Below are positions 2,131 to 5,428 of a DNA stretch of 6,204 nucleotides, one piece after another. Numbering within the stretch: position 1 is the first letter of the stretch; the number at the start of each line of letters is the position of its first letter. This stretch comes from Synergistota bacterium (lineage in GTDB: Bacteria > Synergistota > JAGHAJ01), in contig JAGHAJ010000054.1 of the NCBI GenBank assembly GCA_021161545.1, positions 1-6,204 on the forward strand. The letters are read 5' to 3'. The notes below the pieces were generated by a model. It was not told where the DNA came from and ran no database searches. It worked only from the letters and a program-made list of their open reading frames with translations. Position numbers and translations under genes: made by a program.

Positions 2131-2660
2131 GGAAAAAAAGGCTGCTGCTCCATATATGCTGTGCACCTGATGCCACTATCCCTTATATACTCCTCAGCGA
2201 AGAGTATGAGGTTGTCGGATACTTCTATGGTTCAAATATACACCCACTATATGAATACAAAAAAAGAATAGCAGCCCTACAGGGCCTTTCAGAGAGGTGG
2301 GGTATGCCCATTATAGTTGAGAAGTATGAACCCTCCTCATGGTTGAAGAAGACCGCTATTTTCAGAGATGAACCCGAAGGTGGGAGGCGATGCAGGATAT
2401 GTTTTTTCCTTCAGCTTGACTCAGCAGCCCGAGTTGCAGCTGAAAGAGGTATCCACCTCTTTACAACTACGCTTACCATTAGTCCCCATAAAGACGTAGA
2501 TGCAATAAATACTATAGGAACAATTGCAGGTAAACGACATGGTGTTCATTACATCCCCCACATATTCAGGAAAAAAGACGGCTTTAAAAAGAGTGTGTAC
2601 TTAAGCCGTCTTTTAGGGCTTTACAGGCAGAACTACTGTGGCTGTATATTCAGCCGTTAG
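2124..2660 (+). CDS. queH: epoxyqueuosine reductase QueH (former DUF208)
   Basis: QueH reduces epoxyqueuosine to queuosine in the wobble position of tRNA Asp, Asn, His and Tyr, as the last step of queuosine synthesis. It is the iron-sulfur alternative to cobalamin-dependent QueG. From the TTG at 2124 the product is 178 residues, normal for the family. Visible family motifs are LLLHICCAPD near the N-terminus (adjacent Cys12-Cys13), RRCRICFFLQL (Cys90 and Cys93), FTTTLTISPHKD around 113-124, KKDGFKKS, and the C-terminal GLYRQNYCGCIFS with Cys172 and Cys174. The six conserved cysteines fit a metal/Fe-S enzyme. An in-frame TTG two codons earlier (2118) is too near the ribosome binding site. No clear own promoter was found, so readthrough from glmS across the antisense of the tRNA is possible. 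Its TAG stop overlaps the TAA of the converging gene. Confidence 0.94.
   Translation: MSRKKRLLLHICCAPDATIPYILLSEEYEVVGYFYGSNIHPLYEYKKRIAALQGLSERWGMPIIVEKYEPSSWLKKTAIFRDEPEGGRRCRICFFLQLDSAARVAAERGIHLFTTTLTISPHKDVDAINTIGTIAGKRHGVHYIPHIFRKKDGFKKSVYLSRLLGLYRQNYCGCIFSR
2571..2614 (-). terminator. intrinsic terminator of the sensor gene, inside queH
   Basis: AAAAGACGGC (2573-2582) and GCCGTCTTTT (2605-2614) form a perfect 10-bp stem, extended by four A:T pairs after one bulged T, with a 13-base loop. Read on the minus strand, the hairpin is followed by a run of six T (plus A run 2571-2576) and begins about 42 bases after the stop of the PocR/MCP-like gene, an ideal place for Rho-independent termination. 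On the plus strand it has only a T4 tail and lies within queH coding sequence. Confidence 0.72.
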
Positions 2661-3415
2661 GACTCCTTCTTGTAATCTGCGATGAGTTTCTCAAGCTCAT
2701 CTACCTGTGAAAATACGTAATCCCCAACCTTCTTTATCTCGCCTGCGACGACTGCAAACCCTGTTCCCTCTTCCCCGAGCCTTGCGGCTTCTATTGCGGC
2801 ATTTATACCAAGCACCTGTATGTTCTTTGCTATCCTTCTTATGCCGTTTCCTATGTTGTGCAGCTTTGTGTAGAAGTCTCCAGAGCTTGCAGATAGTGAT
2901 ATGTAAAGCTTGATACTCTCTGCTGCTATATTTACGGTGGCGCGCATGCACTCCTTGTCTTGAATTTTCTCATCCTCCAAAAGGTCAAGTAACTTCTGTG
3001 CAGGGAATCCATATTTGGACGCTTTTTCTGATATGAGACTCTTGTACTCTTCGTCTAACTCTCTCGCTTTTGCAAAGTCCCCTTCAAGGAATCCAACAAA
3101 CTCGCCATTGCTGTCGAATATAGGGGATGTAAATGCATAAAAACCCATGCTGTTCTTGTATACGATGGTGCACTTCTCCTCGAGTGCCCTGTTTCTTGCA
3201 TCCAGTCTCAGAGGCAAACACTCTTCTGTGAATATCCTCGAATTGGATAGAGTTGCTATGGTATCTTTGTGCTTCTGTGTACCGCGTATTTCCCCTACCT
3301 TTTCGATGATTTCAGCATTTCCTGTTGCCAGCCACACGGCGCTGTTGGTAGCTTCAGAAAGCATGCCAAGGATATTACTGATTTCACTTTTACCAGCTAC
3401 TTTCTCGATATCCAA
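2657..3415 (-). CDS. soluble PocR-like sensor with minimal chemotaxis-receptor tip
   Basis: The predicted cytoplasmic protein has 252 residues and no membrane segment. Residues about 15-175 resemble the PocR ligand-binding fold: SEATNSAVWLATGN at the start, then GFYAFTSPIFDSNGEFVGFLEGDF (91-114) in the position of the PocR core strands, then an Ala/Leu-rich helical end. Cys66, Cys82 and Cys156 are the only cysteines. Residues about 192-246 match just the hairpin tip of methyl-accepting chemotaxis proteins (GINAAIEAARLGEEGTGFAVVAGEI), the part that contacts CheA/CheW. The usual long coiled coils, HAMP and methylation helices are missing. I choose TTG 3415 because a strong ribosome binding site (3421-3430) and a promoter lie just upstream. 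The ATG at 3499 would add 28 basic residues but has no usable ribosome binding site. It converges on queH with overlapping stops and diverges from padR. PocR assignment is by pattern only, and the ligand is unknown. Confidence 0.85.
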   Translation of the reverse strand: MDIEKVAGKSEISNILGMLSEATNSAVWLATGNAEIIEKVGEIRGTQKHKDTIATLSNSRIFTEECLPLRLDARNRALEEKCTIVYKNSMGFYAFTSPIFDSNGEFVGFLEGDFAKARELDEEYKSLISEKASKYGFPAQKLLDLLEDEKIQDKECMRATVNIAAESIKLYISLSASSGDFYTKLHNIGNGIRRIAKNIQVLGINAAIEAARLGEEGTGFAVVAGEIKKVGDYVFSQVDELEKLIADYKKES

Positions 3416-3420
3416 CGTTC

Positions 3421-3430
3421 TCCCCCCTCT
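3421..3430 (-). promoter_or_regulatory. ribosome binding site deciding the sensor-gene start
   Basis: On the minus strand AGAGGGGGGA lies about six bases before TTG 3415. The alternative ATG at 3499 has only an AGG two bases away. This supports the shorter 252-residue protein. Confidence 0.7.
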
Positions 3431-3447
3431 AAATCCCCGTTTTAGAT

Positions 3448-3476
3448 ATTTTACCTCTTTTGACAAAGTTTGGCAA
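3448..3476 (-). promoter_or_regulatory. sigma-70 promoter for the PocR/MCP-like gene
   Basis: On the minus strand TTGCCA (plus 3471-3476), a 17-base spacer and TAAAAT (plus 3448-3453) each differ from consensus by one base. Transcription would start near 3441, giving a leader of about 25 bases that includes the ribosome binding site at 3421-3430. The promoter lies inside the longer reading frame that begins at 3499, which argues against that start. Confidence 0.75.
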
Positions 3477-3492
3477 GTTGATTTGAAAATCC

Positions 3493-3521
3493 TTGACATG
3501 ACCTGATACTTGTATTATAAT
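3493..3521 (+). promoter_or_regulatory. consensus sigma-70 promoter for the padR operon
   Basis: TTGACA (3493-3498), a 17-base spacer and TATAAT (3516-3521) match the consensus at all positions, so transcription should start near 3528. The -10 region sits in a perfect 10-bp palindrome, TATTATAATA (3513-3522), and more AT-rich sequence follows to 3541. A promoter this strong in front of a PadR gene suggests it is held off by a repressor, most simply PadR itself, but I cannot assign a defined operator. The -35 boxes of the two divergent promoters are 16 bases apart. Confidence 0.88.
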
Positions 3522-3559
3522 ATATATGCAAAATGAATATAGGAAGGTAGTGTATATAG

Positions 3560-3916
3560 ATGCGTAGAGGTAGAGGTGGATTTGGTCTTGGATTTGGTAA
3601 GGGTTGGTGGCTCATGGCCTATATATTGAGGGTGTTGAGGGATGGGCCTGTTCATGGTTATGAGATATTGGAGAGGCTTGTTGAGGATGGTCTTGCGTGG
3701 GGAAGTCCTGGGAGCGCTGGTGGTTTATACAGGCAGTTGAGGGTGATGGAGCAAATGGGACTTGTGACTTCTACATGGGATGTGACTGGCGGTGGACCTG
3801 CAAAGAGGGTTTACAGCATAACGCCGTATGGTATGGAGTATCTGTATGAGGTTGTCAATGATATGAAGGCTCTGAAGCGCGAGATAGATGGGTTTATAGA
3901 CGCCTTTGAGCGTTGA
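3560..3916 (+). CDS. PadR family transcriptional regulator
   Basis: The 118-residue protein is a winged-helix DNA-binding regulator of the short PadR type. The family usually represses its neighbours until a small ligand or stress releases it. Family motifs are GPVHGYEILERL (29-40), GLYRQLRVMEQMGLV (55-69) and the wing GPAKRVYSITPYG (79-91). A C-terminal helix (about 94-118) would form the dimer interface. The first 17 residues (MRRGRGGFGLGFGKGWW) are rich in Gly, Arg and aromatic residues, like the two small proteins encoded downstream. AGGAAGG (3541-3547) is the likely ribosome binding site at a somewhat long spacing of 12 bases. It is the first gene after a consensus promoter, and its stop is within the ribosome binding region of the next gene, so it is probably autoregulated with that operon. 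The effector cannot be read from sequence. Confidence 0.95.
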   Translation: MRRGRGGFGLGFGKGWWLMAYILRVLRDGPVHGYEILERLVEDGLAWGSPGSAGGLYRQLRVMEQMGLVTSTWDVTGGGPAKRVYSITPYGMEYLYEVVNDMKALKREIDGFIDAFER

Positions 3917-3917
3917 A

Positions 3918-3925
3918 AGGAGGTG
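3918..3925 (+). promoter_or_regulatory. ribosome binding site setting the start at 3934
   Basis: AGGAGGTG, a near-perfect Shine-Dalgarno sequence, is eight bases before ATG 3934. A longer frame from TTG 3913 would translate through this site and is not credible. Confidence 0.8.
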
Positions 3926-3933
3926 GTCAAGAG

Positions 3934-4143
3934 ATGTGGGGTAGAGGTTGGGGCTATGGCCCATATGGATTTGGAGGCTTTGGTTGGGGATTTGGTCCTG
4001 GATGGGGATACAGACCGGGTCCTTACTACAGACCGTCTCCGGAGGAAGAAAGGCAGTATCTTCTGGACTATAAGGCGTATCTTGAGGAGGAATTGGCTGC
4101 GGTTAACAGGAGACTTGAGGAAATAGATAGAGAAGGGAGGTAG
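3934..4143 (+). CDS. small Gly/Trp/Tyr-rich protein with C-terminal coiled coil (DUF5320-like)
   Basis: The 69-residue protein has two parts. Residues 1-34 are a low-complexity stretch of Gly, aromatic and Pro residues (MWGRGWGYGPYGFGGFGWGF at the start). Residues 36-66 form a charged amphipathic helix, PEEERQYLLDYKAYLEEEL followed by AAVNRRLEEIDRE, likely a coiled coil. This helix resembles the C-terminal half of DUF5320 proteins, small proteins of unknown function common in anaerobes. There is no signal peptide and no Cys. It starts 17 bases after the padR stop, and its own end carries the ribosome binding site of the next gene, so the three are co-transcribed and probably translationally coupled. 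I know no biochemical function. Self-assembly through the aromatic/Gly segment and the helix is an inference. Confidence 0.85.
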   Translation: MWGRGWGYGPYGFGGFGWGFGPGWGYRPGPYYRPSPEEERQYLLDYKAYLEEELAAVNRRLEEIDREGR

Positions 4144-4148
4144 TGAAG

Positions 4149-4394
4149 ATGCCTGCATTTGATGGGACAGGTCCTGCTGGTCTTGGACCGATGACTGGAA
4201 GGGGTCTTGGACCCTGCGGTGCTTATTATCGTGGTCGTTACGGCTATCCTGCACCTTACTATGGCTACGGTTTACCTTACCGTTACGGTTGGGGTAGAGG
4301 TTTCGGCTATGGCTGGGGTAGAGGCTACGGTTGGGGTAGAGGCTACGGTTGGGGCAGAGGCTTTGGTTGGCGTAGAGGATGGGGCTGGTGGTAA
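4149..4394 (+). CDS. DUF5320-like protein with Gly-Trp-Gly-Arg repeats
   Basis: The 81-residue protein opens with MPAFDGTGPAGLGPMTGRGL and then GPCG, the recognised N-terminal signature of DUF5320 proteins (MP-x-x-DGTGP-x-G-x-GPMTGRG-x-G-x-C). The rest is Tyr/Gly/Pro-rich and then about five copies of a six-residue GWGRG(F/Y) repeat, ending WGWW. Cys23 is the only cysteine. It lacks the C-terminal coiled coil of the family, which is instead encoded by the gene just upstream. ATG 4149 is seven bases after AAGGGAGGT (4133-4141). The GTG at 4143 is only one base away and would spoil the MP start typical of the family. It ends seven bases before a strong terminator. Function is unknown; the positive charge and aromatic repeats would suit binding of nucleic acid or condensation with partners, as inference only. 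Confidence 0.88.
   Translation: MPAFDGTGPAGLGPMTGRGLGPCGAYYRGRYGYPAPYYGYGLPYRYGWGRGFGYGWGRGYGWGRGYGWGRGFGWRRGWGWW
4287..4382 (+). repeat. in-frame 18-bp tandem repeat coding GWGRG(F/Y)
   Basis: About five degenerate copies of an 18-base unit (GGTTGGGGTAGAGGCTAC and variants) begin at 4287, 4311, 4329, 4347 and 4365, with one extra Gly-Tyr pair of codons between the first two. The units at 4311 and 4329 differ at one base. The period keeps the reading frame and lies wholly within the DUF5320-like gene, as expected for a repeat that can change copy number without breaking the protein. Confidence 0.9.
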
Positions 4395-4400
4395 GCCCTT

Positions 4401-4432
4401 AAGTGGGGAGGTATGTTGCCTCCCCACTTTTG
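4401..4432 (+). terminator. Rho-independent terminator after the padR-DUF5320 genes
   Basis: AAGTGGGGAGG (4401-4411) and CCTCCCCACTT (4419-4429) form a perfect 11-bp GC-rich stem with a 7-base loop, followed by TT and then GTAAT, so the T run is TTTT counting the last stem bases. It lies seven bases after the 4394 stop and directly before the permease ribosome binding site at 4437. It may act as a partial terminator that sets less permease than small protein. Confidence 0.9.
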
Positions 4433-4436
4433 TAAT

Positions 4437-4444
4437 GGGAGGTG
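4437..4444 (+). promoter_or_regulatory. ribosome binding site deciding the first half-permease start
   Basis: GGGAGGTG is seven bases before TTG 4452. The in-frame ATG 4413 lies in the terminator loop and upstream of this site, and ATG 4458 is 13 bases away, so TTG 4452 is preferred. Confidence 0.72.
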
Positions 4445-4451
4445 GATAACA

Positions 4452-4952
4452 TTGCAGATGCTTGGGGGACTCATATACGGTATTATTGTTTTTTGCCTTT
4501 ATGCATATATGTTTAAGAAAAGAAAAAAGCAAGCATCTTCTGCCTTGAAGAAGGGAATTGTTCAATTCTTCAATAGGCTGCCGATGATACTTGCTATATT
4601 TCTCCTCATAGGGCTGTTTGATGTGTTTGTTCCCAAGGAGGTTGTCAGTTCTGTGGTTGGTGGTGGAAGAGGCATAGTATCCGTTATACTCTCTGTCTTT
4701 ATGGGGGCTGTTATGATGGGGCCTGTTGCTACATCCTATCCGTTGGGTGCCATGTTACTGTGCAAAGGGGCTGCTGTCTCTGCAGTTGCTGCATTTCTGT
4801 ACAGTTGGGTCATGCTTGGTGTCACGGTGGTGCCATTTGAGATATCCGTCTTTGGGGGCAGATTTGCGCTGGTGAGAAATATGTTCGCATTCATTGGTGC
4901 TGTGGTTATGGGATTGCTTACATCTTTGGTTCTCACGGGAGGACCGTTTTGA
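4452..4952 (+). CDS. half-size permease, ArsP/DUF318-like, first subunit
   Basis: The 166-residue integral membrane protein has about five hydrophobic segments: about 4-21, 43-61, 75-97, 100-130 and 145-164. A basic cluster KKRKK (22-26) follows the first and should lie in the cytoplasm. The pattern FFNRLP (39-44), VP (60-61), a Gly-rich segment, GAVMMGP (85-91) and LLCKGA resembles one half of the COG0701 permeases (ArsP, DUF318), which are about twice this size. The CSCG-type cysteine motif of arsenic-exporting ArsP is absent here (GPVATSYPLG stands in its place), so organoarsenical export is not supported. The next gene encodes a paralogous half and overlaps by four bases, so the two probably form a heterodimer. 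Transcription most likely comes from the padR promoter through the terminator, since no promoter was seen in the gap. Substrate unknown. Confidence 0.85.
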   Translation: MQMLGGLIYGIIVFCLYAYMFKKRKKQASSALKKGIVQFFNRLPMILAIFLLIGLFDVFVPKEVVSSVVGGGRGIVSVILSVFMGAVMMGPVATSYPLGAMLLCKGAAVSAVAAFLYSWVMLGVTVVPFEISVFGGRFALVRNMFAFIGAVVMGLLTSLVLTGGPF

Positions 4953-5428
4953 AGGAACACTGGTTTGAGTTCTTTGTCTTATTGTTATATATTTCACTAT
5001 CACTCTTTTATCCCGGGAAGGTTCAGCAGGCGTTTTGGGTAGGTATAGGGTTGTTCTTCAAGATGTTACCTATATTCGCTTCTGTTGTTCTGTTTTCCAC
5101 CTTTCTTGGTGTATTTTTGTCTCCTAAGTTTATACAGAGGTTTGTGGGAAAGGATTCAGGCATAAAGGGTATTATCATTGCGGTTATTCTTGGCACCGTG
5201 ATAGTTGGTCCTATGTGGGTGATGTTTCCCATGTTTAAGACATTTATGGAGAAGGGTGCACGTGTTGCAGTTGTGGTTGCCTTAGTCGGCACGTTTGCCG
5301 TGAAGACGCCGTGGTTGCCGTATGCAGCAACCTTTCTGGGTTGGGAGTTTGTCATTGTCTCCGTTGTTCTTATAGTGTGTTATGCTGTGGTCTCTGGACT
5401 TGCTATGGAAAGGCTCTTGGGAGAATAG
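4949..5428 (+). CDS. half-size permease, ArsP/DUF318-like, second subunit
   Basis: The 159-residue membrane protein mirrors the preceding one: FFKMLP (36-41), SP (58-59), a Gly-containing loop and GTVIVGP (82-88) fall at nearly the same spacings, followed by two or three more hydrophobic segments. VKTPWLPYAATFLGWEF in the second half would be the polar, Pro-containing part of the pore region. It begins at TTG 4949, which overlaps the previous stop as TTGA, with GGGAGG (4937-4942) six bases upstream, a classical arrangement for translational coupling of two subunits made in equal amounts. No Cys-rich metal motif is present. The family match is by pattern and is stronger for the pair than for either protein alone. 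Substrate unknown. Confidence 0.85.
   Translation: MKEHWFEFFVLLLYISLSLFYPGKVQQAFWVGIGLFFKMLPIFASVVLFSTFLGVFLSPKFIQRFVGKDSGIKGIIIAVILGTVIVGPMWVMFPMFKTFMEKGARVAVVVALVGTFAVKTPWLPYAATFLGWEFVIVSVVLIVCYAVVSGLAMERLLGE

Follow-up and report, generated by a model that had tools for sequence, protein, structure and literature searches.

The five genes at positions 3560-5428 of the window, a stretch of 6,204 nucleotides that makes up one entire contig of a draft genome totalling 1.58 Mb, were interpreted, with a probability of about 0.5, as a DUF5320/NifX-type operon under autoregulation by PadR, in which an ArsP-like pair of half-permeases follows a terminator that is either leaky or regulated. As related sets in distant bacteria include a protein of the metal-cofactor type, the unit probably handles a metal or a metal cofactor. 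The families are known, and it is the arrangement of these known families that is new; a PadR-DUF5320-half-permease arrangement was not found in the literature searched. The unit connects DUF5320, a family that occurs widely in this phylum of anaerobes but lacks an assigned function, with a regulator and its specific DNA motif, with the NifX-fold metal-cofactor family and with a two-part ArsP-like permease. These links give testable claims on the identity of the metal or cofactor, on PadR as the sensor and on the joining of the half-permeases into one transporter.

Organization of the unit and its promoter

The gene order of the window is glmS ribozyme, glmS, tRNA-Leu on the opposite strand, queH, a PocR-MCP gene, the unit and, at the right end, the beginning of a CBS/DRTGG pyrophosphatase gene. 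The following features were assigned.

1-161: glmS ribozyme (RF00234, 99.8 bits), immediately 5' of glmS
2092-2005, minus strand: tRNA-Leu
2657-3499, minus strand: PocR-like sensory domain with a short MCP signalling piece, divergent from padR
3493-3521, plus strand: sigma-70-type promoter TTGACA-17-TATAAT of the PadR unit
3520-3532, minus strand: putative PadR operator TTTGCATATATAT, which overlaps both the -10 box (at its end) and the expected start site
3560-3916, plus strand: padR, 118 aa, with a Gly/Arg/aromatic N-terminal extension
3934-4143, plus strand: d1, C-terminal-type DUF5320, 69 aa, profile positions 35-99, Gly/aromatic stretch and charged coiled-coil-like tail
4149-4394, plus strand: d2, N-terminal-type DUF5320, 81 aa, profile positions 1-53, GYGWGRG repeats and no coiled coil
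4401-4433, plus strand: intrinsic-terminator-like hairpin, perfect 11-bp stem and 7-base loop, then TTTT
4452-4952 (alternative start 4413), plus strand: perA, half-permease of 166 aa, ArsP-like repeat, TTG start
4949-5428, plus strand: perB, half-permease of 159 aa, paralogue of perA, TTG start overlapping the perA stop

The five-gene layout given in the original prediction was confirmed: padR is followed by two small genes that match DUF5320, with gaps of 17 bases (padR-d1) and 5 bases (d1-d2), and by two overlapping half-permease genes. In profile searches the unit contained the only matches to PadR, DUF5320 and ArsP_1 in the draft genome, which is the sole member of its family among the relatives compared. 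The perfect-consensus promoter described upstream of padR was present at 3493-3521 (12/12 match) and was, as had also been claimed, the single visible one, with nothing else promoter-like on the plus strand between this site and position 4965. The tRNA-Leu gene has a second 12/12 TTGACA-17-TATAAT promoter (2130-2102, minus strand), and the padR promoter is not unique in the contig. The start of the PocR-MCP gene lies about 60 bases from padR, and one intergenic region houses both promoters.

The 100 bases upstream of each of four PadR-DUF5320 units (the window, G008, G004 and G185) were compared. The motif TTTGCAYATATRT was common to all four promoters and overlaps or adjoins the promoter elements. 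An equally good shared 12- or 14-mer was obtained in 0/400 shuffles and in 0/400 control sets, the latter being real AT-rich stretches taken from the same loci as the units. The exact 13-mer of the putative operator has one copy in the 1.58-Mb genome, at the padR promoter. In a leave-one-out test, which was partly non-independent as the four sites had been picked for likeness, the best site of the three-unit profile in the whole locus was at the promoter of the omitted unit in all four cases; for G004 the register was off by one base from the chosen site. The placement of the motif fits a repressor site, from which autorepression by PadR would naturally follow. The conserved promoter-overlapping motif in four units agrees with the earlier suggestion of control by PadR, at least for its own operon. 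The perA gene contains one more motif-like site (4500-4512, one mismatch), which was not counted as an operator, since 22 such sites occur in the genome versus 9 for the reversed control pattern.

PadR scored 57.5 bits against PF03551 (gathering cut-off 27). It resembles the family in its winged-helix domain, in its length of about 118 aa and in being without a long C-terminal domain, and the motif overlapping its own promoter would be a likeness to autoregulated PadR repressors. The closest solved chain was TM0937 of Thermotoga maritima (2esh, E 4.5e-22), on which a literature search found no paper. Unlike its PadR kin, the window protein has an N-terminal Gly/Arg/aromatic extension that resembles the start of d1, and it is encoded together with DUF5320. 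It contains no cysteine and was far under the cut-off for PhaQ (65 versus 139 bits). A single clade for the PadR proteins of the four units was not shown.

Both small proteins exceeded the cut-off of PF17253 (DUF5320; 27), d1 with 39.1 bits and d2 with 45.0 bits, and neither covered the profile on its own. Together they make up both ends of a single DUF5320 protein that has been split, with the order swapped, and are not two copies of the family; DUF5320 relatives are mostly one full-length gene. The N-terminus of d2 reads MPxxDGTGPxGxGPMTGRGxGxC, and an 18-bp tandem repeat was found in its gene at 4305-4378. The description of both genes as low-complexity holds for d2 over most of its length, but the C-terminal half of d1 is ordinary charged coiled-coil-like sequence. 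A literature search on the function of DUF5320 found no paper.

Related units and the NifX-fold partner

The survey covered the phylum (185 genomes) and a small separate group of three genomes, listed as the phylum of G185, that includes G185 and G187. A single scan of named genomes gave two loci, and other phyla are therefore under-sampled. DUF5320 was present in 56 of the 185 phylum genomes and also occurs outside the phylum, in Thermotoga and Methanosarcina. Within the phylum PadR adjoins DUF5320 only in the window genome (G000), G004 and G008; the proposition that DUF5320 always accompanies PadR was rejected on this count (3/56 genomes). The complete PadR-DUF5320-perA-perB set was found in only two phylum genomes, the window genome and G008. 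The latter, the MAG 'bacterium 42_11' from another family, carries NifX-PadR-DUF5320-perA-perB in one run on one strand. Its NifX, PadR and DUF5320 genes overlap, and its PadR and PerA are about 36% identical to those of the window. G004 has PadR-DUF5320-NifX without an adjacent permease, and a permease pair unaccompanied by PadR or DUF5320 is present in G002, from the genus group of G008. In G185 (MAG-58) the order is NifX-PadR-DUF5320, hairpin and a DUF364 gene, and the closest PerA/PerB pair lies on a different contig from PadR-DUF5320. G187, from the same group as G185, has DGC, two half-permeases and a DUF5320 gene overlapping the second half. This composition is located at L114 (1486-3178, minus strand) in an overlapping gene order beside dnaA, the same parts in a different arrangement.

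Conservation of the unit is real though patchy. Its extension beyond close relatives is supported by the full order in G008 and by PadR-DUF5320 in G004 and G185. Adjacency was not limited to this strain and its closest relatives, as seen from the G008 order at about 36% identity and from the DUF5320/half-permease overlap in G187.

A NifX-fold protein, and not the permease, is the chief conserved companion of DUF5320, a point on which the original prediction was incomplete; the permease is an optional part. At 35 of the 45 phylum loci checked, DUF5320 has a NifX-like ORF no more than about 1.5 kb away, and in G015 and G018 a NifX domain, a Gly-rich stretch and a DUF5320 tail are fused in one protein. 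NifX-Gly-rich-DUF5320 proteins of about 192 aa were observed at L025 (1489-2064, minus strand) and L026 (1135-1710, plus strand), with similar frames in G066 and G176. NifX-like genes adjoin the units of G008, G004 and G185. Most DUF5320 relatives have an adjacent NifX gene, while d1 and d2 do not: the window has no NifX-like gene (PF02579) beside them, and three are present elsewhere in the genome. At L110 (1121-1932, plus strand) in the window's genome, the gene next after a DUF59-like one encodes a NifX-like protein with a coiled-coil-like tail of its own, a candidate partner of d1 and d2.

Further metal-related neighbours were the DUF364 gene ('putative heavy-metal chelation') 3' of the G185 unit and DGC in G187. 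DGC is linked to zinc. By association only, these neighbours, the known relatives of the half-permeases and the family of the NifX-fold partners point to the handling of a metal, metalloid or metal cofactor. The ORP protein (2wfb), which belongs to the same family as the NifX-fold partners of the sister units, binds Mo-Cu clusters (PMC6345978 and its references). The MinD/Mrp ATPase, ferredoxin and sigma-54 regulator of the ORP complex are all absent from the window unit, whereas ORP operons are under sigma-54 control (PMC6345978).

Half-permeases and the hairpin preceding them

PerA and PerB each match full-length relatives of ArsP over the first repeat of these proteins. Permeases of the ArsP/SO_0444 kind are encoded by one gene for 300-400 aa, while the window has two genes for about 160 aa each. 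The halves remained under the cut-off of PF03773 (ArsP_1; 30.2 and 26.8 bits versus 32.3), and the score for NF033936 (SO_0444) was 27.5 bits with a cut-off of 300. SO_0444 is a Cu/Zn efflux protein according to mutant fitness (PMC3219624), and ArsP exports methylarsenite (PMC6205960). The CxC of the first ArsP repeat is absent from the window proteins: full-length homologues have CSC, but the halves have the cysteine-free sequences GPVATSYP and GPMWVMFP. Because the halves are without this CxC, the case for metal transport rests on the neighbours. PerB clusters with PerB of G008, G002 and G185 (support 98/95), and the window PerA was placed near PerA of the same genomes without strong support.

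A search of PerA against solved structures gave nothing at E values up to 10. The predicted PerA model had a pLDDT of 80 from a seven-sequence alignment, with only one of five models above 61. In Foldseek it had no match under 0.001, and a second look gave a Z score of 6.2 at best; no fold is claimed. Half-permeases were also observed in other settings. A pair at L064 (331-2789, plus strand) lies beside a different PadR and a full-length ArsP homologue bearing CSC, a pair at L062 (576-2707, minus strand) lies beside a different PadR and a small thioredoxin-like protein, and at L072 (1512-2528, plus strand) a further half-permease, the third in a row, precedes a DGC-like protein that has a membrane segment at its N-terminus.

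The hairpin at 4401-4433, absent from the original prediction and overlooked by a simple terminator scan, lies between d2 and perA. Its region had a folding z of -4.4 to -4.9, and 0/200 shuffles were as good. Hairpins trail DUF5320 in the window, G008 and G185, and none was found in G004. The G008 hairpin occupies the same place as that of the window, after DUF5320 and before perA, and is statistically weaker (z -2.2); the G185 hairpin is located 3' of DUF5320 although the next gene is no permease. With a terminator-like hairpin ahead of the permeases in both the window and G008, the suggestion of one uninterrupted transcription unit was not supported. The TTG at 4452 is probably the perA start, as judged from the sequence, because the ATG at 4413 falls in the hairpin loop and because the TTG has a GGAGG Shine-Dalgarno sequence 8 bases upstream and is the point where homologue alignments begin. 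The perA and perB genes overlap by 4 bases.

The hairpin can also be explained by two adjacent units: PadR would govern itself and the DUF5320 pair, the operon would stop at the hairpin, and the half-permeases would be unrelated. The strong hairpin ahead of perA agrees with this, and so does the hairpin in G185. PadR-DUF5320 without an adjoining permease (G004 and G185), the permease without PadR-DUF5320 (G002) and the half-permease pairs without DUF5320 that are common in the phylum also fit. However, between the hairpin and perA there is no promoter-like site and almost no room for one, and G008 keeps the order and the hairpin position at about 36% identity. The DUF5320/half-permease overlap in G187 is independent, and with about 25 phylum genomes that contain both DUF5320 and the pair, even one chance adjacency is unlikely by a coordinate-based estimate. 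Two separate units are considered rather unlikely.

Proposed function and other explanations

In the preferred reading, a PadR-autoregulated DUF5320/NifX-type operon followed by the half-permeases, PadR would sit on the TTTGCAYATATRT operator over the promoter and repress the unit; the motif is conserved, and binding as well as its sign are inferred. A ligand or cofactor would release PadR, and padR-d1-d2 would be transcribed at a high level. Most transcripts would end at the hairpin 3' of d2, and less perA-perB would be produced by read-through. The paralogous halves PerA and PerB may pair into one transporter, as suggested by their pairing and overlap, while d1 and d2 would jointly supply both ends of a DUF5320 protein. 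As DUF5320 is linked or fused to NifX-fold proteins in most genomes, it may act as an adaptor for small metal-cofactor carriers with the NifX fold, and the unit would traffic or detoxify a metal, a metalloid or a metal cofactor.

This reading draws on the family assignments, the gene order of G008, the G004 and G185 units and the G187 overlap, together with the shared promoter motif and the three hairpins. The frequency of NifX near DUF5320, the G015 and G018 fusions, the three NifX-like genes of the window's genome, the DUF364 and DGC neighbours, the ORP kinship and the grouping of PerB point the same way. Against it stand the window unit without a NifX gene, the pair alone in G002, the G185 pair on another contig and the presence of the full set in two phylum genomes, as well as the missing CxC, the cysteine-free PadR and the failure to show one PadR clade.

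An improbable alternative is a metal-cofactor circuit in which DUF5320 does the sensing and the conserved hairpin after it is an attenuator setting the amount of permease. DUF5320, loaded or unloaded by the NifX-fold carrier, would then tune PadR at the promoter through the Gly/Arg/aromatic segment common to d1, d2 and the N-terminal tail of PadR.

Drug efflux of the LmrR type follows the idea of the original prediction: PadR would sense a lipophilic drug or a phenolic, the permease would export it, and DUF5320 would be an accessory. Many studied PadR proteins govern transporters or detoxification, according to two papers (PMC3506622, PMC6624303), but the permease does not belong to the ABC, MFS or MATE drug exporters and DUF5320 is mainly partnered by a NifX-fold protein. 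This explanation is improbable as well. Efflux of arsenic or an organoarsenical by an operon of the ArsP kind, with PadR acting as ArsR, was considered very improbable. Both halves gave weak ArsP_1 matches and correspond to repeat one of full-length ArsP homologues, but the ArsP_1 matches were below the cut-off, the CxC is replaced by cysteine-free sequences, PadR is free of cysteine too, and no arsR, arsM, arsH or arsB adjoins the unit. Gene decay, with DUF5320 broken into two fragments and the unit being lost, would agree with the single full-length DUF5320 of most genomes but can hardly apply, as both fragments have a start codon, a Shine-Dalgarno-like sequence, no internal stop and tight spacing, C-terminal-only DUF5320 is also the form found in G008, G004, G185 and G187, and simple breakage would not yield the swapped order.
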